Shown here: positions 41,319-56,634 of the stretch, piece after piece
Layout of the letters: every line of letters begins with the position of its first letter
How positions within the stretch are numbered: position 1 is the stretch's first letter
From: Betaproteobacteria bacterium
GTDB taxonomy: Bacteria > Pseudomonadota > Gammaproteobacteria > Burkholderiales > SG8-39
Assembly: GCA_947479645.1 (NCBI GenBank)
Contig: CANKAJ010000003.1
Span: 16,584-80,583 of the forward strand
Reading direction: 5' to 3'
DNA length: 64,000 nt
Position numbers and translations under genes: made by a program
Notes under the pieces: generated by a model
Database searches by the model: none
Seen by the model: only the letters and a program-made list of their open reading frames with translations
Told to the model about the DNA's origin: nothing

Positions 41319-42344
41319 CTACAAGGCCTTCAATGAATCGACCACCTTGCGCTCGATCACGATACCTTCCTTGAGGCGACGCTCCCGTTCGCGATAAGCC
41401 CGCTCTGACGGGATGCGAATCTCGTCAACGCCCGGCTGGCGTGGTGTCGCCTTGACCTTGCGCACCAGTTCGGACATCTGCTTTTCAAATTCGCCCCCGG
41501 GCAGCATGATCGACGGATTGACCGCCCAGAACAGGAATCCGTAATCCTGCACATCACCCCGCGTCAACGCAGCACCCGCGAGCAGCCCCAGCGCCTGGAT
41601 CGCAAAGGACAAGCCGAAACCCTTGTAACCGCCAAATGTGCCGACGCCCCCCTTGATGACCGCAGCCGCATCACGCGTCGGGCGCCCATCCTCATCGAAA
41701 CCCACGCCCTCGGGCAAAGGCTCTCCGATATGGGCGTGCAACAACACATCCCCCCACATCAGCGAGGCAGTCCCCATGTCGATGATCACCGGCCCATCCT
41801 GCGATGGAAATCCAAAGCAGATCGGATTGGTCCCCAATGCCGGGCGCTTGCCGCCCAGCGGCAGCACCCGCGGCACCGCACTGGCCACATGCATGGCTAC
41901 ATAGCCCGCTTTGACAATCTTCTCGACAAAATAGGCATTGCGGCCACTGTAATAGCTGTTATAGGCACCCACCGATGCCATGCCGGATGTACGCACCTTG
42001 TCGATGGTGATCTCGGCCGCCCTATAGGCTGCGATATAACCAACATTGTTACCGCCATCGATCAGCGCGGACCCCGGCGTTTCATTGACAACGTGTACGG
42101 GCGTACGTGTCTTGCTCGTCTTGTCGTCCCCGGCAATGGCCAGTATGCGCGGCAGGCCGGCAAACTTGTATCCGCACAATGCATTGTCAACCAACTGATC
42201 AACGATGATGCGTGCATCCTCGCCGCTGTAGCCTACGCGCTGCAGCGCTGCCTCGCCAAGCTGGGCGGCTTCGGCCGCGCTGAGTCGCACGGTGTCCGGG
42301 CCATCGGCATCCAGCATGCCCTGAGTTGCATTCGGATTTTGCAC
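41319..42344 (-). CDS. Ldh family (malate/L-lactate/ureidoglycolate type) oxidoreductase
   Basis: Family 2 Ldh pattern: NPICFGFPSQDGPVIIDMGTA...GGYKGFGLSFAIQALGLLAGA. Confidence 0.92.
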   Translation of the reverse strand: MQNPNATQGMLDADGPDTVRLSAAEAAQLGEAALQRVGYSGEDARIIVDQLVDNALCGYKFAGLPRILAIAGDDKTSKTRTPVHVVNETPGSALIDGGNNVGYIAAYRAAEITIDKVRTSGMASVGAYNSYYSGRNAYFVEKIVKAGYVAMHVASAVPRVLPLGGKRPALGTNPICFGFPSQDGPVIIDMGTASLMWGDVLLHAHIGEPLPEGVGFDEDGRPTRDAAAVIKGGVGTFGGYKGFGLSFAIQALGLLAGAALTRGDVQDYGFLFWAVNPSIMLPGGEFEKQMSELVRKVKATPRQPGVDEIRIPSERAYRERERRLKEGIVIERKVVDSLKAL

Positions 42345-42492: not shown

Positions 42493-42933
42493 TTATTTTT
42501 TGCCCGGCCGGAATTGCACCAGGGTGATGTCGGAAGTAATGTCTTCGAATACCGCTTCAACCGGCATGCCGATCTTGATGTCCTTGACAGCGCAGTCCAG
42601 GAAGTTCGTCGTCAGTCGCGGCCCCTCCTCCAGTTGAATCTGCACAACCGCATACGGAACCTTGCTCTCAAACCATTTGGTCCAGGGCTTGTGGAATACG
42701 ACGTAATTATGCAATGTGCCTCGACCGCTCATGCGGTCCCACTTGAATGACATCGAAAAGCAATGCGGGCAGGCGGGGCCGATCGGATACCAGGATTTCG
42801 CACACGAGTTGCAACGTTGCAAAATGATTTCGTGCTTGCGCGCCCCCTCCCAGAAGGGAAGTTCTTCCGGGTAGATGACAGGGAGGTATCGGCCGGTCTT
42901 CTCTTCGACCACTTTGTAGGATGGTTCCATCAC
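42493..42933 (-). CDS. Zn-ribbon domain-containing OB-fold protein (DUF35 type)
   Basis: LQRCNSCAKSWYPIGPACPHCFS zinc ribbon followed by OB-fold; adjacent to a thiolase. Confidence 0.92.
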   Translation of the reverse strand: MMEPSYKVVEEKTGRYLPVIYPEELPFWEGARKHEIILQRCNSCAKSWYPIGPACPHCFSMSFKWDRMSGRGTLHNYVVFHKPWTKWFESKVPYAVVQIQLEEGPRLTTNFLDCAVKDIKIGMPVEAVFEDITSDITLVQFRPGKK

Positions 42934-44094
42934 TTATCTCCTGAAAATCACGGTTTCGCCAAGGAAGCTGCCGTACTGGCACACCTCGGCATCCTTCACC
43001 TGCCTGGGTCCGCACTCATGCCGCAATTGCCTGATTGCTTCAATGAAAAGGTTCCACCCGACGACATGCCCCTCTGACAGCAGCCCACCGGAAGTATTGA
43101 TGGGCAGTTCTCCGCCAAGCTCGATGCGTCCATCCTTGATGAAGTCCTTGGCCTCGCCTGGACCGCAGAAACCAAAGCGCTCAAGACCAAACAGAACCAA
43201 TGGCGAAAATGCGTCGTAGGTAATCAGGAAGTCGATGTCCTTCTGAGTCACGCCCGCCATCTGGTAGGCATACAGATCCTCTTTCTGGGGCCTGTAGTTG
43301 AATACTTCCTGCTGCGCAACACCCAGACCAGGCAGGGTCAGATTGTGGAATTGCGGACCGGCATGCACGCCTTGCATCCCCGAGATATAGACCGGCGGCT
43401 TCTTGCAATCCCTGGCCCGTTCGGCCGACGTAATAATCAGGCACGCTCCGCCATCATTGTTCTGGCAGCAATCGAAAAGTCGCAGCGGCTCAACGATCCA
43501 GCGCGAATTCAGGTAATCCTCGCGCGTCATCGGACTGGTGCGACAGGCCAGCGGATTGAGTTGGGCGTGCTTGCGGAAAGCCATCGCAATCGGCGCGAGA
43601 TCATCGCCACTACCTCCATACATGTGGAAATAGCGCTGGGCAGCAATGGCTGCCCCAAACACCGGCCCCATCGCACCATAAGCCGGCGACTCGCCATGGG
43701 GTCCCAACCCCTGACGCCACATTTCAGTGTCCGCAAGCTGCCCGAAAGCCCTGCGCCTGCGGCCATGTACGATAGCCACGGCCTTTGCCATGCCGCTGGC
43801 TACCACCATGGCTGCCTGCTGCAGCATGGGCGCAATAAAGCGGCCATGACTCCAGCCCTGGTAGGCATAGCGCACGTCTGTGCCCACTGCTTCCAGAAAA
43901 CGGTCGTAATCGTTGCCAAACGACAACTGAATCAAGCCGTCAACGTCCTTGCGCTCCAGACCTGCATCTTCCAGCGCCAGATCGTAGGCTTCCACAGACA
44001 GCGCCAGCGCGCTCTTGTCCTGAAAGTTTCCGAGTGTCAGACCAACTCCGCAAACGGCCGTCTTATCGCGCATTGCCTGCGCCACTTGAGTCAT
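42934..44094 (-). CDS. thiolase family protein (non-specific lipid-transfer type)
   Basis: YDLALEDAGLERKDVDGLIQLS...GGACLIITSAERARD...ELPINTSGGLLSEGHVVGWN. Confidence 0.92.
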   Translation of the reverse strand: MTQVAQAMRDKTAVCGVGLTLGNFQDKSALALSVEAYDLALEDAGLERKDVDGLIQLSFGNDYDRFLEAVGTDVRYAYQGWSHGRFIAPMLQQAAMVVASGMAKAVAIVHGRRRRAFGQLADTEMWRQGLGPHGESPAYGAMGPVFGAAIAAQRYFHMYGGSGDDLAPIAMAFRKHAQLNPLACRTSPMTREDYLNSRWIVEPLRLFDCCQNNDGGACLIITSAERARDCKKPPVYISGMQGVHAGPQFHNLTLPGLGVAQQEVFNYRPQKEDLYAYQMAGVTQKDIDFLITYDAFSPLVLFGLERFGFCGPGEAKDFIKDGRIELGGELPINTSGGLLSEGHVVGWNLFIEAIRQLRHECGPRQVKDAEVCQYGSFLGETVIFRR

Positions 44095-44118: not shown

Positions 44119-45198
44119 TCAAATAACGATACAAGATTCTGCGGGCAGCCAGACACGTACGCGGTCTCCTGGAACCGGGAGACCAGGGCGTGCCGGCACT
44201 TCCGAAATCAAGATGCAGTTTTCCGAAATTCGGAGCGAATAACGAACGCGGTCGCCGAGAAAATCGGCCTCGTCAACAGTACCTTCAAAAACATTGTCCG
44301 GGGCACGATCGTCTGCAGTCAGAAGGTGGACCTGATGGTGCCGGATGATCAGGTTGCGCTGTTTGCCGGAGGCGCCATCCCCAATTTCGGTAACCCGCAA
44401 TCCCATTCCGCCGGCCAAGCGAAGCATGCCTGAAGCGTCCGTCAATTCAACCTGCAGCACATTGGCCTGACCAACAAACTCGGCCACAAACAAATGGGTT
44501 GGCCGGTCATACAGTTCGCGAGGCGTGCCTTCCTGAATGATTTCTCCATGATTCATCACACAGACACGGTCGGACAACACCATCGCTTCGATCTGGTCAT
44601 GAGTCACATAGACGGCCGTTACATTGAGCTCGTTGTGAATACGGCGAAGCAGGATGCGCATGGAATCGCGCAGGCGGGCATCCAGATTGGACAGGGGTTC
44701 GTCATAAAGAATAACGTCAGGATCAGCCACCAGAGCGCGTGCCAGCGCCACGCGCTGCTGCTGCCCACCCGAGAGCTGGGCGGGATAGCGCTCTGCATAG
44801 GCACTTACCGGCAGTTCCACCAGTTCCATCATGCGCTCCACCCGCTTGCGCTCATCAGTTCCACCAATATTCTTGATCTTCAGCGGGAACGCGATATTTT
44901 CATACACCGTCTTGTGCGGCCAGACCGCGTAGCTCTGGAACACCATGCCCATGTTGCGCTTGTAAGCAGGAACCGGTTTGCCTTTTCCGCTGACCGGGCG
45001 CCCCTGGATCTCGATCACCCCTTCATCGGGCACCTCCAGTCCGGCAATCATGCGCAATGTCGTGGTCTTTCCGGATCCACTGGGACCGAGCAAGGTTACG
45101 AATTCGCCTTTCTCAACGGTGAGATTGATGCCCTTGACTGCGGCAACCTCTCCGTAACGTTTCCACAGGTTGGTCAGCCTGATTCCTTCTGATGCCAT
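44119..45198 (-). CDS. ABC transporter ATP-binding protein (Fe3+/spermidine-putrescine type, TOBE domain)
   Basis: LLGPSGSGKTTTLRMIAGL Walker A; LSGGQQQRVALARAL; VILYDEPLSNLD. Confidence 0.95.
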   Translation of the reverse strand: MASEGIRLTNLWKRYGEVAAVKGINLTVEKGEFVTLLGPSGSGKTTTLRMIAGLEVPDEGVIEIQGRPVSGKGKPVPAYKRNMGMVFQSYAVWPHKTVYENIAFPLKIKNIGGTDERKRVERMMELVELPVSAYAERYPAQLSGGQQQRVALARALVADPDVILYDEPLSNLDARLRDSMRILLRRIHNELNVTAVYVTHDQIEAMVLSDRVCVMNHGEIIQEGTPRELYDRPTHLFVAEFVGQANVLQVELTDASGMLRLAGGMGLRVTEIGDGASGKQRNLIIRHHQVHLLTADDRAPDNVFEGTVDEADFLGDRVRYSLRISENCILISEVPARPGLPVPGDRVRVWLPAESCIVI

Positions 45199-45210: not shown

Positions 45211-46932
45211 TCAGTCGTGTGATCGAGTTCGGACGTCGGCCCCGAAGACCCATCGGAATACCACCACGATGGCACCCACGATCAGCAGTTGGACAATGGC
45301 CAATGCGCTGGCTATGCCATAGGATCCGTCAATCAGATAGGACCAGGTCAGTATCGGCAATGTCACCGACTTGACCCCGTAAAGAATGACCGACGTGCTG
45401 ATCTCCCGCATCACGATCATGAATATCAGCAGCCATGTCGAGGCCAGCACCGGTTTCAGCAAGGGCATGTTGACGAACATGAAAGTGCGCAGCGGCGAAG
45501 CCCCTGACACGGTTGCCGCCTCCTCGAGGCTACGGTCAATCTGCGACAGGCCCGAACTGGTCGTTCTGACGCCATACACGAGATAGCGAATCACAAAAGC
45601 CAGCATCAGAATCCAGACGGTCAGATACAGCGGCGTTCCAACATAAGCCCACAGCATACCGACACCAAATACGGTACCAGGAATTCCAATGGGCATCGCA
45701 ATCAGATAGTCCGCAAACGCCAGTGGACCACTCTTGCGCCTGACCATGCGATAGGCCAGCAGCAATCCGAGCACGGCGCAAATGGTGGCGGCTCCTGTTG
45801 CCAGATAGACTGAATTGCGCAAACCCAGCATCATGTCTTCGGCTACAAACAGTTGCTGAAAATTCTGCAATCCAAGCTGCGCGATCGTCAGTCCGGTGGT
45901 GCGAACCGGGATGAGCGCGCGTAACAACACCGCCCCCAGCGGCACGGCAACCCCGACAATGAATACGGCCGCGCAAACCGCAAACACGACCGGACGCAGC
46001 GGCCCAAGACGGGTGACGGCCGGCTTGTAGCCTCGCGCAGTCACCGTGACAAACCGCTCCGAACTGCGGGTCATGCGCCGGTACCAGTACAGGCCTATCG
46101 CCGAAATGATCAACAGCAGTGTTCCTGCCGCAGCAGCACCCGGCAGATCTGAGGGATACGCATTGGTTCTCTGATAGATCGCATAGGCGAGCGTGTCATA
46201 ACGAATGTGCGACCCCAGAAAGCCTGGTATCGCAAACTGCTCAAGAGCAAGCGTAAAAATAAACAGCCCGGCGGCGCCAATGCTGCCCACCATGATCGGC
46301 ACGGTAATGCGCATCAGTCGCTGCCACAGATTGGCACCCGACATTTCAGCAGCCTCTTCCAGCGCCGGATCCATGGCCCTGAATGTGCCAACATTCAGGA
46401 TGAATGCGTACGGAATGAAGTAAAACACCATCACGGCAATGATCCCGCCGTATGAGTAGATGTTTATGATCGGTTCAACCGCACCGGTCAGCGCCTGCCA
46501 CCACACATTGAGCAATCCGGCCCGCGGATCAGCCAGAACCGACCAACCGATTACACCGACCAGCGGCGAATAGAGCATGGGAAGGAGGAACAGCATTTCA
46601 AACGTCCGCTTCCCGTACACGTCGGTGCGTGTCACCGCCCAGGCCAGAAACACACCCAATCCACAGGCAATGATCATGACCGGCACCGCCAGGCTGATCG
46701 AATTGATGGTCGCCGACTGCGTCCATCCGTTATCGAACAGTCCGGCATAAACCGACTGAAGATTATCGAGCGTCCAGGTTGCTCTGCGTGAACCGGGACT
46801 GTGCGTGCGCAAGGCGCCATACAACAAGGCACCCAGCGGCGTCAGAACAAGGCCGGCGACGACTGCAAGCAGCCCCCATGACCATACGCGCGCACTCGTC
46901 GAGGTCGGCGCCGCCAATGTGGATGTACTCAC
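45211..46932 (-). CDS. ABC transporter permease (FbpB-like fused permease)
   Basis: 573 aa, two BPD permease modules, EEAAEMSGANLWQRLMRITVPIM and EEAATVSGASPLRTFMFVNMPLLKP EAA loops. Confidence 0.95.
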   Translation of the reverse strand: MSTSTLAAPTSTSARVWSWGLLAVVAGLVLTPLGALLYGALRTHSPGSRRATWTLDNLQSVYAGLFDNGWTQSATINSISLAVPVMIIACGLGVFLAWAVTRTDVYGKRTFEMLFLLPMLYSPLVGVIGWSVLADPRAGLLNVWWQALTGAVEPIINIYSYGGIIAVMVFYFIPYAFILNVGTFRAMDPALEEAAEMSGANLWQRLMRITVPIMVGSIGAAGLFIFTLALEQFAIPGFLGSHIRYDTLAYAIYQRTNAYPSDLPGAAAAGTLLLIISAIGLYWYRRMTRSSERFVTVTARGYKPAVTRLGPLRPVVFAVCAAVFIVGVAVPLGAVLLRALIPVRTTGLTIAQLGLQNFQQLFVAEDMMLGLRNSVYLATGAATICAVLGLLLAYRMVRRKSGPLAFADYLIAMPIGIPGTVFGVGMLWAYVGTPLYLTVWILMLAFVIRYLVYGVRTTSSGLSQIDRSLEEAATVSGASPLRTFMFVNMPLLKPVLASTWLLIFMIVMREISTSVILYGVKSVTLPILTWSYLIDGSYGIASALAIVQLLIVGAIVVVFRWVFGADVRTRSHD

Positions 46933-46962: not shown

Positions 46963-48099
46963 TCAACGTTTCCAGCCGAGGATTCGTCTCATCTCCGGCA
47001 TCAACTTCTCGTAGTTCTTGTCCCAGTCATCCATATCCGGAATCCAGCGCGCTTTCGCCGGGTAAGGCTGCCACCAACTGGTCTGCTTGAGCTTTGCAAT
47101 GGCCGAGCGCTGCTCGACCGCCCCCTTCAGGGTCGGTCGAGCCTGAACCGTCTCCACCGCTTTGGCGCCCTCGGGCGTAAAGAACCACGCGCTGAACAGC
47201 CGCGCAGCCGCAGGGTGCGGTGCCTGCTTGGAAATGGCCATGTAGGTGTTAGTAAATGATGGGGCGACATCCGGATAGGTCCAGGCGGTCTTGTCCCCTT
47301 TCAGAAACTCGATCATCGCCACGGAATCCCAGTTCGGGATAAACACCGAGATGGCACCGGCAGCCAGATCCTCCCGCCCCGGCGCCGAACCGGGATACAA
47401 ACGCGGGTTTTGTGCCGCCAGTTGTTCAACGAACTTGCGGCCGTATTCCGGCCTGCGATAGAACATCAGAAAAGTCGCAAACGCGACCCCGCCACCGGCC
47501 GGCTCATTAATACCGATCTTGCCCTTCAATTTGGGATTTAGCAGACCATTCCAGGTCTTGAACATTTCCTTGGCTTCTGCGTGCGGAATATGATCGGGAT
47601 TGTAGGAGATGACAATGTCAGTCCACTTTGGACTGTACGCGATGCCAGGCAGGTAGGTTCCCTTGTCCAACTTCTTGTCCAGATCGGCGAGGGTATACCT
47701 CAGGTACAAGCCCTCCTCGGCCAGGTCGCGCATGCCGGCGGGATCGGCCGAATAATTCACGTCCATCACGTGCTGACCGGCACGCTCCTCGGTCATGAAC
47801 TGCTGGGTTCCCAGAACGCCTACCTTACGATCCGATTGCACCTTGATGCCAAATCGAGCGGTAAAAGCTCGCGCAAATTCGGCCATTTCATCAACGGGTG
47901 AACTGTAGCGCACCAGCAACGTGCCTTCGCGCTTGGCTGCATCAATCAGACGCGGCGTAATTTCGACGGTTTCGACAGCTTGTGCGTGTGCGGACTGGGA
48001 TTGCACGCCAAGAATACCGCCCGCGCCGGCTGCTGCAAGCGCGGTACCGGCCCGCAAAAATGAACGGCGACCGGGCAAGATGATTTTGGAATCTGACAT
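46963..48099 (-). CDS. ABC transporter extracellular substrate-binding protein (Fe3+ type), Tat-like signal
   Basis: GRRSFLRAGTALAAAGAGGILGVQ leader; solute-binding family 1/6-like sequence. Confidence 0.9.
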   Translation of the reverse strand: MSDSKIILPGRRSFLRAGTALAAAGAGGILGVQSQSAHAQAVETVEITPRLIDAAKREGTLLVRYSSPVDEMAEFARAFTARFGIKVQSDRKVGVLGTQQFMTEERAGQHVMDVNYSADPAGMRDLAEEGLYLRYTLADLDKKLDKGTYLPGIAYSPKWTDIVISYNPDHIPHAEAKEMFKTWNGLLNPKLKGKIGINEPAGGGVAFATFLMFYRRPEYGRKFVEQLAAQNPRLYPGSAPGREDLAAGAISVFIPNWDSVAMIEFLKGDKTAWTYPDVAPSFTNTYMAISKQAPHPAAARLFSAWFFTPEGAKAVETVQARPTLKGAVEQRSAIAKLKQTSWWQPYPAKARWIPDMDDWDKNYEKLMPEMRRILGWKR

Positions 48100-48207: not shown

Positions 48208-50013
48208 TCATCCTGCGCGCAGCGCTTTCCATTTCTTCGGCAGTTGAATTTCCCTTGCCGTCGGATAACCATCCAGACCGTTGTGCAAGAAAATATAGGC
48301 ACTGTTGCGTGCCGGGTCACCCGTCACAACGACCATGTAGTCATCTGCCTCCCACACGATGGGAACCAGTCGCTTTGGATCATCGGACTCATGGAACACC
48401 CGCGGCAGGCGGCCCAGGCGCGCTTCGCTCGCCAGGTTCCAGGTCGGTTTTTGCGTCCAGTCGCGCAGAATGGTCTCAACCTCGCCTGCCGGCCTGCGCG
48501 CAAGGCGAAACAGCTCACGCTTGAAATCCTGCTTGGACCAGCCGCTGGCGGCCATGGTCTGCGCAAGTATCGGCGACAACATCACCAGCGGGCGCAAAGA
48601 GCCTCCGGTCGTGCCAACGGTAAAGGTGAGATGCCAGAAGTGCTGACTTGCCATCGCCGCTGCGAGATAGGGCATCATCTGTTCCGGCGTGCTGCCCGAT
48701 ACCGAGCCGATATGATTGCCGCCGGCAAATCGTGTAACCGTCACCACATTGCTTCCGGCGGGAAAACCCATTTCCTCACTATTGGATTCCCAGCCGATCC
48801 TGGAGATGACATCCTCATTCTCGGCAACCACCACACGCCAGGTATTGCCAAAAGTCGCCTTGTCATTGCGATGAGGCAGAAAGCCCGCGACATTGCGCAG
48901 ATAGAGTCTCCAGAATCGGCCGATGGTTGTATTGGCCCGAAAACCATCGCGCATGACACCTTGCGTGAAATTGAATCCGAGTTCCTTGATAATCGGCCCA
49001 TTGATCAGTATCAGCGTGTCACTGCCAGGGGTGTTACCGCTATGCTCCACTCCATAGTACGGATCTGCCATCGCTTCGATCAGTGCGACCAATATGGGCA
49101 TGTACTCCGGACGACAACCGGCCATGACACCATTGACCGCCACGCTCCAGACCGTCGCCGCTCGTCGATCAGGCAGCATCACGCCGAGCACATCTCCAGG
49201 ATCGCGATCGGTATAGCGCAGGAATGCCTCTACCCGCTGGCGCGTCGGAATGTGTATGGGCAGACCGTCGGAGAGTTCGTTCCGGTAAAAGTAGTCTTCG
49301 ATCTCATCGGCCGTGCCATGAACGACGATGTCACGTGCGCCAGGCTCGACATCGGCATCGGCCTGTTCAGGCTGCGTCAGCAGATTGGAGATAACCCTGT
49401 CCAGGGTGGATTCGATGATATTGCGCTTCAGCGTCTCGCTGCTCTGAACACCGGGGTGGCCAGGCACTGCGGCAACCGGAAGATTGGGCATGCCCTGCCC
49501 CATTGCAGCTGCCGAAGCCAGGCCCAGAAAGCCATCGCAAACCAGTGAAGAAGTCGGAACGCCCAGCGCTTCACACGCTGCACTGGCCCGCAACACGGCG
49601 GGCGTGCAGCTGCCTCAACAGCCCATGCCGCAAATGACGGCATCGACCCCCAGTTCACGAAATCGTCGTGGCAGCGACGCGAGTATGGCCTTCTCATCGG
49701 AGCCCTGAATGCTGCCGAACTCGCGCCAGCTTATGAAACGCACCCCCGGAAAGCGATCGCGCAGCCCATCTTCAAGACAGGCGAACACCTCGTCACCGCG
49801 AAACAGATAATCCCAGAGCTGGACAACAGTCTTTCCTTCAAGCGTATCCAGACGCCGTGCCAGCGGTCTGGCGGCAGTCTGGCGTGGACTGCGGGGCCAG
49901 AATGCCTCCAGTTGCTCGCCCTCTTCAGGCAACACGCTGACACTCAGCTTGCGGCCATCGCTTTGGGCACCGCCTTGGGCAGCCTGGCTGATCTTTGTTT
50001 TTGACGCCCGCAT
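48208..50013 (-). CDS. UGSC-family selenoprotein (in-frame TGA = selenocysteine at 49615-49617)
   Basis: ORFs 49615-50013 and 48208-49596 share one frame. Continuous translation ...GVDAVICGMGC-(TGA)-GSCTPAVLRASAACEALGVPTSSLVCDGFLGLASAAAMGQGMPNLPVAAVPGHPG... A SECIS-like hairpin follows the TGA. Confidence 0.88.
49577..49610 (-). promoter_or_regulatory. bacterial SECIS-like hairpin
   Basis: 5'-GCUGCAC GCCCGC [CGUGUU] GCGGGC (CA) GUGCAGC-3'. 7-bp and 6-bp perfect helices, 2-nt bulge, 6-nt loop with G at loop position 2; loop starts 18 nt after the UGA. Confidence 0.8.
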
Positions 50014-50157: not shown

Positions 50158-51405
50158 TCAATTGACTGGTTTGGCAATTTCCAACTTGATGCCACGGGCA
50201 CCTGGCGCCATTGGCGACGAAACAGCCTCAAGGTCGCCTTTCTGTGGCGTCGCAAGGCCGGATTTGGAAACACGCGCCACAACCACCACGCGTGGAAATG
50301 CGGAAACTTTCAGGGTTGGCGTCATTGCCATGGAATCGTCCAGCGAAAAATCAAAAGGCAGGTCTTTGACCTGGCGACGCATCACCGCCAGCGGCATGCG
50401 TGGTCCTTCTGCCGCTCTTGCAAAAACAAACACGGAATCTTCCGGCCCCACCTTTGACCCCGCTGAAGGGGAAAGAACGACACGACCACTGAGTGAAGCT
50501 ACAGGACTCGCCGATACCCCGGGACTCGCCTCAGCTTCCTTGGACGCTGACTTGGCTGGCGGCACGCCCATGCGGCTTTCCGCTTCGGCGATACTGCTGC
50601 GGACCGAGCCGGCAAATTCCGACTCAGGAGGAACCAATGCCAGCGCGCGCTTCCAGGATTTGGCTGCGCCGCTGAAGTCATTGCGATTAAAAGCAATGGT
50701 GCCGGCAATGGAGAGCGCTTTCACGTTATCGGGATCGATGGCGAGCGCTCGCGTAATCAGTGCCGCCGGCTCGCCCTCCAGTTTTTTGCCTTGCGCCATG
50801 GCAAGCACGTCGGCAAAATCCGCCAGTAGCTGGGCATCCTTCGGCTGCAGGCTGACAGCCTTCGCATATGCCCGTGCAGCGTCGTCGTAACGACCGACTG
50901 CGGCCTTGGAGCGCCCCAGAAGAATCCAGCCATCAATATCGTCGGGCCTCTCCTTCAGTCGCTCGGCCAGCCGGTTGACCATGCCTTCGATCTGCTCGGC
51001 AGTCACCGCATGCGGACTGCCCGAATTGGCTACTGCTGCTTGAGGGGAAAACGCGTCGGGATTGCCAAGCCAGGAATACAGGCCCGCTGCGAAAAGCGGA
51101 ACCGCAATGGCAACAACGATGGCTGCCCGCGCCGAGCGCGTGCGCGTCCCGATTGCTGCGTCCGCGCCATCGTCCAGGACACGTCGCTCAATCTCGCCAC
51201 GCGCCATTTCCCACTGCTCGCGGGTAAGAATGCCGGCTGCAAGTTCTGCATCGAGTTCGGCCATCTGCTCGCGATAGATGCCGACATTGCTCGCCAGCAT
51301 ACCGGAAGAAGAAGCACCCTTGCCATCACGGGAAAGCAATGGCCACAACAACAAGGCAAGCACCAGTGCTACCAGCAAAACGGAAAAAACAACAAAGAGC
51401 ATCAC
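50158..51405 (-). CDS. ccmI: c-type cytochrome biogenesis protein CcmI
   Basis: N-terminal 2 TM, LTREQWEMARGEIERRVLDD, TPR region; terminal position in the ccm operon. Confidence 0.92.
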   Translation of the reverse strand: MMLFVVFSVLLVALVLALLLWPLLSRDGKGASSSGMLASNVGIYREQMAELDAELAAGILTREQWEMARGEIERRVLDDGADAAIGTRTRSARAAIVVAIAVPLFAAGLYSWLGNPDAFSPQAAVANSGSPHAVTAEQIEGMVNRLAERLKERPDDIDGWILLGRSKAAVGRYDDAARAYAKAVSLQPKDAQLLADFADVLAMAQGKKLEGEPAALITRALAIDPDNVKALSIAGTIAFNRNDFSGAAKSWKRALALVPPESEFAGSVRSSIAEAESRMGVPPAKSASKEAEASPGVSASPVASLSGRVVLSPSAGSKVGPEDSVFVFARAAEGPRMPLAVMRRQVKDLPFDFSLDDSMAMTPTLKVSAFPRVVVVARVSKSGLATPQKGDLEAVSSPMAPGARGIKLEIAKPVN

Positions 51406-51872
51406 TCGGGTTGTACTCCAGATTCCAGAATTTTCTTGGCGCGCGCACGCTCCGCGTCATCGAGCGGCACTTCCTCGATTTGGGACGTCCGGCGTCGCCG
51501 CAGGACAACGAAAAGAAAGACGAACGCGCCGGCAAGCAATGCAAATGGACCAAACCAGAGTAGCATCGTCGTCGCTTTCACCGGTGGACGGTAGAGCACG
51601 AAGTCACCATAGCGCTCCACCATGAATGAAATAATGGCTTCATTGCTGGCGCCTGCTTTGAGCTTCTCGCGAACCTGATTCTTGAGATCAATTGCCAGCG
51701 GCGCGTGCGAGTCGGCGATGGTCTGGTTCTGACACACGAGACAGCGCAACTCCTCGGAAATGGCGGTAACACGCTTTTCAAGCTCGGGGTCTTCTGCAGC
51801 AGGTGCCGCTTCCTTCCCGAAGCTGGTACCTGCAAACAGGCAGATCAGGAGCAAGAGCAATAGTTTATGCAT
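51402..51872 (-). CDS. ccmH: cytochrome c-type biogenesis protein CcmH
   Basis: ISEELRCLVCQNQTIADSHAPLAIDLKNQVREKL motif. Confidence 0.96.
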   Translation of the reverse strand: MHKLLLLLLICLFAGTSFGKEAAPAAEDPELEKRVTAISEELRCLVCQNQTIADSHAPLAIDLKNQVREKLKAGASNEAIISFMVERYGDFVLYRPPVKATTMLLWFGPFALLAGAFVFLFVVLRRRRTSQIEEVPLDDAERARAKKILESGVQPE

Positions 51873-52398
51873 TGCCTTGAAGCTCCCGCACCAATGGCAC
51901 AATGGTGTCACGCAGCAGCTCCGGCGTCAGTATGCCGATTCGCTTGTAGCGGATGACCCCGCGCTTGTCGATGACAAACGTCTCAGGCACGCCATACACA
52001 CCATAATCGATGCCCACCAGGCCATCGTGGTCGTACAAGGACTGCTGATAGGGATTGCCGAACTGTTTCAGCCAACCGAGTCCATCGCTGCGTTCATCCT
52101 TGTAGTTCAGGCCCAGCACCGGCACCACTCCGGTCTTGGAGAACTGCAGCAGCGTTTCATGTTCTTCACGGCAAGCGACACACCAGGAAGCCCAGACATT
52201 CAATACCCATACCTTTCCCAGCATCTCCGTGTGCTTGAACGCAACCTCAGGATGATTGAGGTCCGGCAACGTAAATGCTGGTGCGGGCTTTCCAATCAGC
52301 GGTGAAGGCACCTCGCGCGGATTGAGATTGAGTCCGATCCCGAGGAAAACCAGCAGTCCCATAAAAATACCCAACGGAGCAAGGTAGCGCGCCTTCAT
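51865..52398 (-). CDS. ccmG: DsbE/CcmG thiol:disulfide interchange protein
   Basis: GKVWVLNVWASWCVACREEHETLLQF thioredoxin-like WCVAC motif. Confidence 0.95.
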   Translation of the reverse strand: MKARYLAPLGIFMGLLVFLGIGLNLNPREVPSPLIGKPAPAFTLPDLNHPEVAFKHTEMLGKVWVLNVWASWCVACREEHETLLQFSKTGVVPVLGLNYKDERSDGLGWLKQFGNPYQQSLYDHDGLVGIDYGVYGVPETFVIDKRGVIRYKRIGILTPELLRDTIVPLVRELQGNA

Positions 52399-52402
52399 CG
52401 AA

Positions 52403-54391
52403 TCACCCCGCTACCGCAGCGGCAGGCAGGGCCTGTGCTGCGCTTCGACGGTTGAGCCGGTAGCGCTTGTCCATGGCGGCCAGAATGCCTCCCAGCGCCA
52501 TCAACAGGCAGCCGCCCCAGATGCATCCGATCAGGGGCTTGTACTGAAACTTGAGCAGCCACGCATTCTTTCCCGGTGCATCCGACACTTGCTCTCCTAT
52601 CGAAACGTAAAGGTGACGCGCCACATTCGCATCGATTGCCGCCTCGGTCATCGGCATGTCCTGTACCGTGTACAGGCGCTTTTCCGGAAACATGACGGTC
52701 ATGTGTTCGGTACCGCGCAGCACCTCGATGACCCCGCGTATCGCCCGGTAATTGGGACCTTCGACCTCACGCAATCCTGAAAGCGTAAAGGTGTAGCCCG
52801 CCAATTGCGCGCTATCCCCCAATTCCATTTTTACATCGGTATCCGTTTCATATCCCCGCGAGATCGTCACTCCAAGAATGAATACGGCAACACCCAGATG
52901 AGCCAGCAACATGCCGAAATAGGCGCGTGGTTGCGAATTCAGGCGTACCAGCATGCCTGAACCGAGCGTAGCGCCCAGTCGCAAACGCAAACCGGTGACA
53001 GTGGACACAACGACCCAGAAGGACAGCAGCAAACCGAGAAATACCATGGGACTCCAGTGCCCCATCAGAAACGGCACGACACCGGCAAGCGTCAATGCCC
53101 CGAGCGCCGGCCACCGCAACTTGATTACGAGGTTGAGGACTTCGTCTTTTTTCCACTTTACCAGCGGACCAATGCCCATCAGGATAATGGCTGGCGCCAT
53201 CAACGGCACGAATACCGTCTCGAAATAGGGAGGGCCGACAGACAGCTTTCCCAGACCCAGCGCATCCAGCAGCAACGGGTACAGCGTGCCCAGCAGGACC
53301 GCCGCCGCCGCCACACTCAGCAGCACGTTATTGGCCAGCAGCATCGTTTCTCTCGACACCAGTTCAAACCGCCCGCCCAGCCCCACCCGATGAGCCCGTA
53401 CGGCGAATAATGCCAACGAAGCGCCAATGACGATCGCCAGAAAAGCAAGAATGAAAATGCCACGTTTAGGGTCGGTCGCAAAGGCGTGAACCGATGTCAG
53501 CACACCCGAGCGCACCAGGAAAGTGCCGAGCAGGCTGAGCGAGAAGGCGATGATGGCCAGCAGCACTGTCCAGGCCTTGAAGCCGCCGCGCTTCTCCGCA
53601 ACCGCCAGTGTATGCACCAGCGCCGTACCCACCAGCCATGGCATGAAGGAGGCATTTTCAACCGGGTCCCAAAACCACCATCCCCCCCAACCCAGTTCGT
53701 AGTAGGCCCAGAAACTGCCCAAGGCAATCCCCAAGGTCAATGAAGACCACGCAGCGATGGTCCAGGGCCGCGACCAGCGCGCCCAGGTGGCATCCAGCCT
53801 GCCATCGATCAATGCAGCAATCGCAAATGCAAACGCCACGGAAAACCCGACATAGCCCATGTACAGCAGCGGCGGATGGAAGATCATGCCCAGATCCTGC
53901 AGCAGGGGATTCAGGTCCCTGCCATCGGCGGCGGGAGGAAAGATGCGTTCGAACGGATTGGAAGTAAACAGCATGAAGGCCAGGAAACCGACACTCACCA
54001 GCGCCATGACACCAAGCACACGGGCGACCATGCGCTCTGGCAGGTGCCGGCTGAATGCAGCCACCGCCACGGACCAGAAGCAAAGCATCAGAGTCCACAG
54101 CAGCAGCGATCCCTCATGTCCGCCCCACACGCCCGCGATACGATAGGCAAGCGGTAATTTGCTGTTGGAATGCTGAGCCACGTAAAGCACTGAAAAGTCG
54201 TTCGCAATGAATGACTGCGACAGGCAGCCAAACGCAATGACCACCAGGGCGCACTGCGCCAATGCTGCAGGACGCGCCAGTGCCATCCATGCAGCCTGAC
54301 CTCTGGCCGCACCCGCAATCGGCAGTATGCCCTGCACCGCCGCGACGCAAAGCGCCAGGATAAGTGCGAAATGTCCCAGTTCCGGAATCAT
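52403..54391 (-). CDS. ccmF: heme lyase CcmF/NrfE family subunit
   Basis: 662 aa; [11 protein letters not shown] and [19 protein letters not shown] motifs. Confidence 0.97.
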
Positions 54392-54834
54392 TGAATCACC
54401 GTTTTGGCCGCTTTCTGCGCCTGATCCACTGCATGTTTTGCCTCGGGAGGCATATAGTTCTCATCATGTTTGGCGAGAACCTCGTCAGCCTGAAAAACAC
54501 CATCCTGCCCCAACTGACCTTGCGCTACGACGCCCTTGCCCTCGCGAAAAAGATCGGGCAGGGATCCGCGGAATTCGACCGGCACTACTTTTGCCGTGTC
54601 TGTAACGACAAAGCGCACCGTCACGCCGTCTGCCTGTCGCTTCACGCTGCCGGCTTCAACCATACCGCCAATACGAAAACGCTTGCCTGTGGGCGCTTCC
54701 TTGGCCGCGATTTGTGACGGTGTGAAGAAAAATACCAGGTTCTTCTGGAAGGCCGACAGCACGAGACCGGCTGCAACAGCCAGCGTCGTCAAGCCGCCCC
54801 CAATGAGTAGGAATCGTTTATGCCGCGGTTTCAC
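54388..54834 (-). CDS. ccmE: cytochrome c maturation protein CcmE
   Basis: [34 protein letters not shown] heme-binding motif. GTG start with GGAGG RBS. Confidence 0.95.
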
Positions 54835-54967
54835 TGCCACCTCCATTATTGCGTGCGGATTTTTCAAATACCGCCCGCCGACGGCGACCGAGCATGATCA
54901 TCTCCATTACCAGCACAACCACAACCATCGCCACTGAGCCCCATACATAAAAGCCATATCCCCCCAT
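54818..54967 (-). CDS. ccmD: heme exporter protein CcmD
   Basis: [49 protein letters not shown]; 49 aa, between ccmC and ccmE. Confidence 0.9.
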
Positions 54968-54996
54968 GGCCACGAATTCGCTCCAACTCGACCAGA

Positions 54997-55803
54997 TCAC
55001 GACGCTCTCCGAATTTCTTCCTTGCACCACTGAGTGTGCCATTCCCGCTCTAGGATAATGCTGCGAACACGTGAAAGAATAGTTGCAAGGCTGTACATCC
55101 AGAATGCCAGCGCCATCAATAACATTCCCAGCAGCATGGTCATTGCCATGGTTGGAGCACTCTTCATGCTGATCGAAGCGCCCTGATGCAGCGTATTCCA
55201 CCACACCACCGAAAAATAAATGATAGGCACATTAATGACACCGACCAGGGCAAGGATGGCTCCGGCACGATCGGCGCGCCGCGGGTCATCAATGGCCGCC
55301 TGCAGTGCCATGAAACCGAAATAGAGAAACAGCAGTATCAACTCCGAAGTCAGTCGCGCATCCCAGACCCACCAGGTTCCCCAGGTCGGCTTGCCCCAAA
55401 GTGAACCTGTCCACAGCGCCAGAAAAGTAAAGATTGCGCCGGTCGGCGCAATAGCCGTCGCCAGCATGGAAGACAGTCTCGTATTGAAAACCAGGCCGAC
55501 GCCGGCCCAGAATGCCATGACCACATACAGGAACATGGACATCCATGCCGCAGGAACGTGCAGGAAGATGATGCGGTAGGCGTCACCCTGCTGCGCATCG
55601 GTCGGTGCGATGAAAAAACCCACGTAGGTGCCCGCAATGCACAGCAGCACGGCCAGCCAGACAAACCAAGGGACCATCCGTCCGGCCAGCGGATAGAAGG
55701 TCTGCGGGGATGCAAACCAGAACCAGTGGATGCGTTCGCTGGCGGCGTTATTCACTTGTTTCACTTGTGGACTAGTAGTCAAGGCAGACAATTCAACTTT
55801 CAA
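54997..55803 (-). CDS. ccmC: heme exporter protein CcmC
   Basis: FLHVPAAWMSMFLYVVMAF; GTWWVWDARLTSELILLFLYFG. Confidence 0.97.
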   Translation of the reverse strand: MKVELSALTTSPQVKQVNNAASERIHWFWFASPQTFYPLAGRMVPWFVWLAVLLCIAGTYVGFFIAPTDAQQGDAYRIIFLHVPAAWMSMFLYVVMAFWAGVGLVFNTRLSSMLATAIAPTGAIFTFLALWTGSLWGKPTWGTWWVWDARLTSELILLFLYFGFMALQAAIDDPRRADRAGAILALVGVINVPIIYFSVVWWNTLHQGASISMKSAPTMAMTMLLGMLLMALAFWMYSLATILSRVRSIILEREWHTQWCKEEIRRAS

Positions 55804-55965
55804 TTTCAGACAATCCAGTGACTGATTTTACCTCTATGGCAGCATATGACCTGGAAACGAAGCAAAGATTCACTGATCTGGCCATTGCAGTTACCCAGTA
55901 TGAGATAGACAGCAGTTCAAGTTGAAATGATTTCATCAGAAAAATGTCAATAAATGCCTGCTTAA

Positions 55966-56634
55966 TTAATCCAGCGCAAGCCGCACGGCGCTGGCAGCGG
56001 CCCAGGGCGCTATCACAACTGAGACCAGCAGGAACGCGGCCAACAGTTGCAGATGGGCCGTGGCGTCCAGGCCGGACTCCACCGCGACGACCGCACCGGA
56101 CCCGAAGATCAGCACCGGGATGAACAAAGGCAGCACCAGCAAAGCCGACAGAACCCCTCCACCACGCAGTCCCAGGGTCAGCGCAGCACCCACGGCGCCA
56201 ACAAAACTGAGTGCCGCGGTTCCGATCAGCAGTCCCGCGCAAAGCACGGCAATCGCATCGGCATGCAGATCGAATTGCAATGCCAGAACCGGTGCCAGCA
56301 ATGTCAGCGGCACCCCTGTCAACAACCAATGCGCCAGGATCTTGCCAATCATCAATACGGTGAGCGGCTCGACACTGAGCGCCATCTGCTCCAGGGTTCC
56401 ATCCGCATAGTCGGGCTCGAACAATCGCGCCAGAGAGAGCAAGGCGGACAGCAACGCCGCCACCCACAGGATTCCAGGCGCCATCGACTGCAACAACGCT
56501 CTCTCGGGCCCCACACCGAGAGGGAACAAACTGACCACGATGACGAAAAATACCAGCGTATTGGCCGCGTCCCCCTTGCGTCGCAGCGCCAGCGCCAGGT
56601 CGCGACGCACTACGCAAGCCATCGCGCCAATCAT
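55966..56634 (-). CDS. ccmB: heme exporter protein CcmB
   Basis: VVRRDLALALRRKGDAANTLVFFVIVVSLFPLGVGPE; 6 TM. Confidence 0.96.
   Translation of the reverse strand: MIGAMACVVRRDLALALRRKGDAANTLVFFVIVVSLFPLGVGPERALLQSMAPGILWVAALLSALLSLARLFEPDYADGTLEQMALSVEPLTVLMIGKILAHWLLTGVPLTLLAPVLALQFDLHADAIAVLCAGLLIGTAALSFVGAVGAALTLGLRGGGVLSALLVLPLFIPVLIFGSGAVVAVESGLDATAHLQLLAAFLLVSVVIAPWAAASAVRLALD

Follow-up and report, generated by a model that had tools for sequence, protein, structure and literature searches.

A UGSC-family selenoprotein gene from a betaproteobacterium with 31 TGA-containing copies of the family

We analyzed a 64,000-nucleotide stretch of betaproteobacterial DNA (the window), the minus strand of which almost certainly carries a selenoprotein gene at 48208..50013. 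This gene, a fusion of a UGSC domain with a second, C-terminal domain, specifies a 601-aa protein with selenocysteine (Sec) at codon 133 and has homologous copies elsewhere in the genome. The UGSC family and its fusion, "UGSC/Unknown_1," have been known since the survey of Zhang and Gladyshev in 2008 (PMC2398784), and the gene itself is not of a new kind. What is unusual here is the scale, 31 Sec copies in one genome, and the genomic setting.

Results

As for the reading frame, re-reading of the sequence bears out the initial annotation. A single minus-strand frame runs from an ATG at 50013 to a TGA terminator at 48210-48208, with one internal TGA in its 601 codons (codon 133, 49617-49615) in the context VICGMGC-U-GSCTPA. 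Mechanical ORF calling splits this frame into 132-aa and 462-aa products, as had been noted. By itself, the open frame is not beyond chance expectation for this GC-rich DNA, since six TGA codons of the window are preceded by at least 100 open codons and followed by at least 400. Since such arrangements are not rare, the case for a selenoprotein rests on conservation, and it is lifted above chance by a Pfam domain that extends across the TGA, by the 31 genomic TGA copies, and by frozen synonymous codons downstream. The Pfam UGSC model (PF24696) matches residues 38-211, spanning the TGA, with 95.4 bits against a gathering threshold of 25 (5.7e-27). The gene had been called unannotated, which holds for naive gene calling but not otherwise, since Pfam and NCBI already have UGSC models.

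The rest of the host genome strengthens the prediction of a 601-codon UGSC-family selenoprotein. A profile search with the family returned 34 matches, 31 of which contain exactly one TGA; the three without it consist of two partial matches and one under the cut-off, and none of the full-length matches has Cys at the Sec position. Sequencing error, against which the initial annotation had cautioned, is excluded by these 31 copies together with orthologues in other species that have the identical TGA. Homologues do not end at this position but run on through it, and some relatives have Cys in the Sec column (SDCGSC in L123, HCSTC in L120-L122), in keeping with the reading of the in-frame TGA at 49615..49617 (minus strand) as Sec. 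The genome also has the complete set of Sec genes whose presence had been posed as a check: tRNA-Sec (80 bits) directly adjoins selA on contig C54, while selB and selD are on contigs C13 and C40, respectively. One host UGSC gene adjoins selC-selA; the end of another is ~140 bases upstream of selB. Across genomes, selA is present in 19 of the 24 that have UGSC and in 7 of the 37 that do not (Fisher 4e-6). Completeness is below 90% in four of the five UGSC genomes lacking selA; the fifth (G020), which is 97% complete, has TGA-containing UGSC genes and no selA match. Together, these findings make Sec recoding of the window gene well supported.

Just 3' of the UGA lies a probable bacterial SECIS hairpin, GCCCGC-CGUGUU-GCGGGC (49586..49603, minus strand), with a G in its apical loop, for which synonymous freeze, covariation, and a covariance model provide the evidence. 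We divided UGSC genes into class A (33 genes, UGSCTPAVLR, the type of the window gene) and class B (56 genes, mostly UGSCTSWSVHD), and compared modal codon use with family codon usage from codons -12 to +44 at a threshold of p 0.004. Class A shows freezing well past expectation at codons +2 and +4 to +9 (for example, +7 is GTG in 29 of 29), and no further codon tested in that range falls under the threshold. In class B, the frozen codons are +2, +4, +5, and +7 to +10, together with three isolated ones (+17, +38, and +41). The frozen codons form a hairpin, its stem starting 14 nt past the TGA's first base. For class B, pairing holds in 97% of cells, compensatory changes occur in five of eight stem pairs, double-change cells number 24 vs. 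4.7 in shuffles, and slid structures fail. Covariation in class A is weak, with one compensatory pair, and these sequences are too uniform for a strong test. Folded on its own, the window hairpin shows no unusual stability (z -0.6), and stability alone would therefore not have revealed it. When the class B covariance model was run on the whole host genome with E up to 1, 26 of its 28 hits fell at UGSC TGAs, and it finds the window site with an E value of 0.067; these hits count as support rather than independent proof, since the model carries sequence too and the protein is conserved on either side. We regard the two extra hits (C93 and C182) as chance, a convincing in-frame TGA gene being seen at neither. 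A search of the SECIS region against Rfam gave no family match.

The full-length structural model of the window protein is confident (pLDDT of 91, pTM of 0.89), and so is that of the C-terminal domain. The UGSC domain (49381..49902, minus strand; residues 38-211) is predicted to be Rossmann/flavodoxin-like, with an alternating β/α order and the Sec immediately before a helix. The 2008 survey had guessed a thioredoxin-like fold and a redox function for UGSC (PMC2398784), but thioredoxin topology was not found around the Sec in our predicted model, where the N-terminal domain is unlike the fold proposed then. Foldseek searches with the N-terminal part matched MetH, FtsZ, and flavodiiron proteins, none at an E value below 0.001. 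Those with the full model matched generic Rossmann-like domains only, which we did not take as homology, and searching PDB sequences with the family profile gave FtsZ as the sole hit, judged to be chance.

The C-terminal domain (48211..49368, minus strand; residues 216-601) probably corresponds to "Unknown_1" of the 2008 survey (PMC2398784). This domain of ~310 aa, which is fused in the window protein and encoded by a separate adjacent gene at other loci, carries many near-invariant residues, including conserved DGLPxxPPT, NGP, GR, and ENE motifs. It matched no Pfam or NCBIfam family, and its sequence found nothing in the PDB. Foldseek matched it to class I fumarase/Toblerone structures only, with a TM score of 0.24 or less among the top hits listed, and these matches were not taken as homology.

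The window protein resembles known UGSC selenoproteins (PF24696, NF041046, and the 2008 fusion) in its U-G-S-C motif, Sec-encoding TGA, and second domain. It differs from the shorter form described by NCBIfam NF041046, against which it scores 44.2 bits with a curated cut-off of 125. In the wider family, PrdB models match 27 of 66 members (best 1.5e-6) and GrdB models match 22 of 66. The PrdB match of the window protein covers residues 114-207 and spans the Sec, while its score against TIGR04483 is 16.4 bits for a family cut-off of 300. At the level of sequence, the UGSC N-terminal domain is distantly similar to PrdB/GrdB rather than a member of either family. The shared traits are a Sec in U-x-x-C, this distant similarity in the Sec region, a larger second subunit or domain as partner, and copies that in the UGSC family are putatively substrate-specific. 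In contrast to PrdB and GrdB (D-proline reductase; glycine, sarcosine, and betaine reductase), the scores are far under the cut-offs, the C-terminal domain is not recognized as GrdE/PrdA, and the host is a betaproteobacterium instead of an amino-acid-fermenting anaerobe. We identified no partner of the pyruvoyl type (GrdE/PrdA); the C-terminal domain has no Pfam or NCBIfam match, and a Cys at position 300 is found in 56 of the 66 family members.

Downstream of the selenoprotein gene, on the same strand, the next gene encodes an ABC solute-binding protein (46963..48099), followed by an ABC permease (45211..46932), an ABC ATPase (44119..45198), a thiolase-like/lipid-transfer protein (42934..44094), a ChsH2-type Zn-ribbon OB-fold protein (42493..42933), and an Ldh_2 malate/L-lactate dehydrogenase family protein (41319..42344). 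Cotranscription with the ABC transporter is uncertain because a sigma-70-like site (10/12; 48185-48156) intervenes between the selenoprotein and solute-binding protein genes. Immediately upstream and also on the same strand (50158-56634), ORF translations resemble a cytochrome c maturation (ccm) cluster. The window copy has neither a TctC gene nor a thioredoxin-reductase-like gene next door. Around the host UGSC genes as a whole, TctC/Bug receptors account for 54 of 124 neighboring genes, the others including acyl-CoA dehydrogenases, enoyl-CoA hydratases, CoA-transferases, and MmgE/PrpD proteins. The odds ratio for TctC enrichment is 5.6 even with ~700 TctC and an assumed ~5,500 genes, part of this adjacency being background because TctC genes are so abundant in the host genome. 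The TctC/Bug set of this genome (G000) is indeed very large, with at least 150 members (150 scored, all below 5e-68) and 701 first-look candidates. At seven loci belonging to the closest orthologues, the gene directly downstream is thioredoxin-reductase-like and encodes a CAxC motif. The host has a thioredoxin-reductase-like gene of its own (CADC; L060:8458-9363, G000:C54), which is near selA and tRNA-Sec.

The ~31 UGSC genes of the host are divergent, and a tree built from 104 UGSC domains scatters them among its main clades, where they often have orthologues from other species. We therefore reject a strain mixture in the metagenome-assembled genome (MAG) as the source of the copy number; the divergent copies have separate orthologues, and contamination is 1.8%. 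Within the TSW clade, fused and split forms are intermixed. Only 2 of 228 other genomes in a class-wide sample have a UGSC match, whereas other genomes of the same genus have from 1 to 25 copies, and a genome from another family of the same order (G041) has 19. Those database relatives of the window protein that carry names come mostly from betaproteobacterial MAGs.

Discussion

The best reading of the UGSC expansion is a family of substrate-specific Sec reductases, to which the similarity to PrdB/GrdB, the neighboring genes, and the thioredoxin-reductase-like gene in orthologue loci all point. These enzymes may act on imported organic acids. For the window protein, we give an even chance to a 601-aa Sec protein whose N-terminal domain is a Sec substrate reductase, re-reduced in a thioredoxin-reductase-like manner and with substrates specific to each paralogue. 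In this mechanism, SelB/SECIS-directed decoding of UGA as Sec, its well-supported step, would yield one 601-aa selenoprotein. The UGSC domain, distantly PrdB/GrdB-like, would present a reactive selenolate where a helix begins, as the predicted Sec position and fold suggest, and the C-terminal domain, whether fused or the product of an adjacent gene, would bind a small carboxylate-type substrate. The Sec would then attack the substrate and break one bond reductively, after which the resolving Cys of U-x-x-C would form a Se–S bond. Re-reduction of this bond would fall to a thioredoxin-reductase-like flavoprotein fed by NAD(P)H, a role suggested by gene linkage in orthologues. Paralogues would differ in substrate, adjacent TctC/Bug or ABC receptors importing each one. 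More tentatively, the whole set could form a betaproteobacterial Sec catabolic toolkit of ~31 selenoenzymes, each serving one imported organic acid, with a new substrate-binding fold, PrdB-like chemistry, and a thioredoxin-reductase-like feed.

The same UxxC motif and the same linked flavoprotein gene would also suit a general thiol-disulfide or peroxide-type redox protein, as would the thioredoxin-like fold and redox role guessed in 2008 (PMC2398784). There, the U-x-x-C would cycle through a selenenylsulfide, the C-terminal domain would do no more than assist docking, and the expansion would reflect stress or partner specificity rather than carbon catabolism. We consider this unlikely, though worth keeping in mind, for the predicted domain is parallel β/α and Rossmann/flavodoxin-like, not thioredoxin-like, its distant similarity is to PrdB/GrdB, and its neighbors are transporter and acyl-CoA enzyme genes. 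It is improbable that catalysis resides instead in the C-terminal domain, for example as a carboxylate hydratase or isomerase, with the Sec domain in a regulatory, activating, or repair role. Although many of its residues are near-invariant and its fold comes closest, if unconvincingly, to class I fumarases, the fold matches are poor (rmsd of 17-19 Å at the TM scores given above), and retention of Sec in 31 of 31 copies suggests a central role for Sec.

Two explanations do away with Sec altogether. Naive ORF calling is what two separate genes, or a pseudogene, stopping at the TGA and restarting at a GTG would predict, but protein homology spans the TGA, fused Cys homologues read on past it, codon freeze and a hairpin follow it, and orthologues in other species share it, which makes this highly improbable. 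General reassignment or readthrough of TGA (e.g., as Trp or Cys), under which the frame would likewise be open, has a negligible chance, since more confident host genes end in TGA than in either other stop (128, vs. 65 TAG and 50 TAA) and the in-frame TGA occupies one homologous codon, after which comes a hairpin.

Substrate-specific Sec reductases in multiple copies would have a precedent in the fluoroacetate reductase farACEB of Cloacibacillus, where duplicated GrdB-type selenoproteins are linked to transporters and one substrate is proposed for each copy (PMC10838667). However, Cloacibacillus has true GrdB/GrdE homologues and eight grdB copies only (PMC10838667). The window family also departs from UGSC as described in 2008, not only by its 31 Sec copies in one genome but by its linkage to receptors, to selA/selB, and to a thioredoxin-reductase-like gene. 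In the open papers searched, we found no report of the 31-copy expansion or its neighborhood; Haft and Gwadz 2023 and Haft and Tolstoy 2025, on selenoprotein neighborhoods, may cover part of it. Record bacterial selenoproteomes comprise ~57-63 genes over many families, and betaproteobacteria are absent from the selenoprotein-rich lineages listed (PMC13188914). That one betaproteobacterium should hold 31 Sec copies of a single family is unexpected, and ~31 versions in an uncultured host suggest an extensive, unexplored repertoire of selenium-dependent enzymes. Under naive annotation, each of the 31 genes would be split or truncated and so hidden from metabolic reconstruction. With this set, a question dating from 2008, the role of the UGSC fusion proteins, becomes testable. 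Not every relative has kept the active residue: one UGSC/C-domain paralogue in another genome (L124:2698-4449, G006:C101) lacks Sec and Cys alike at this site (ITGNGAGGEG) and has possibly changed function.
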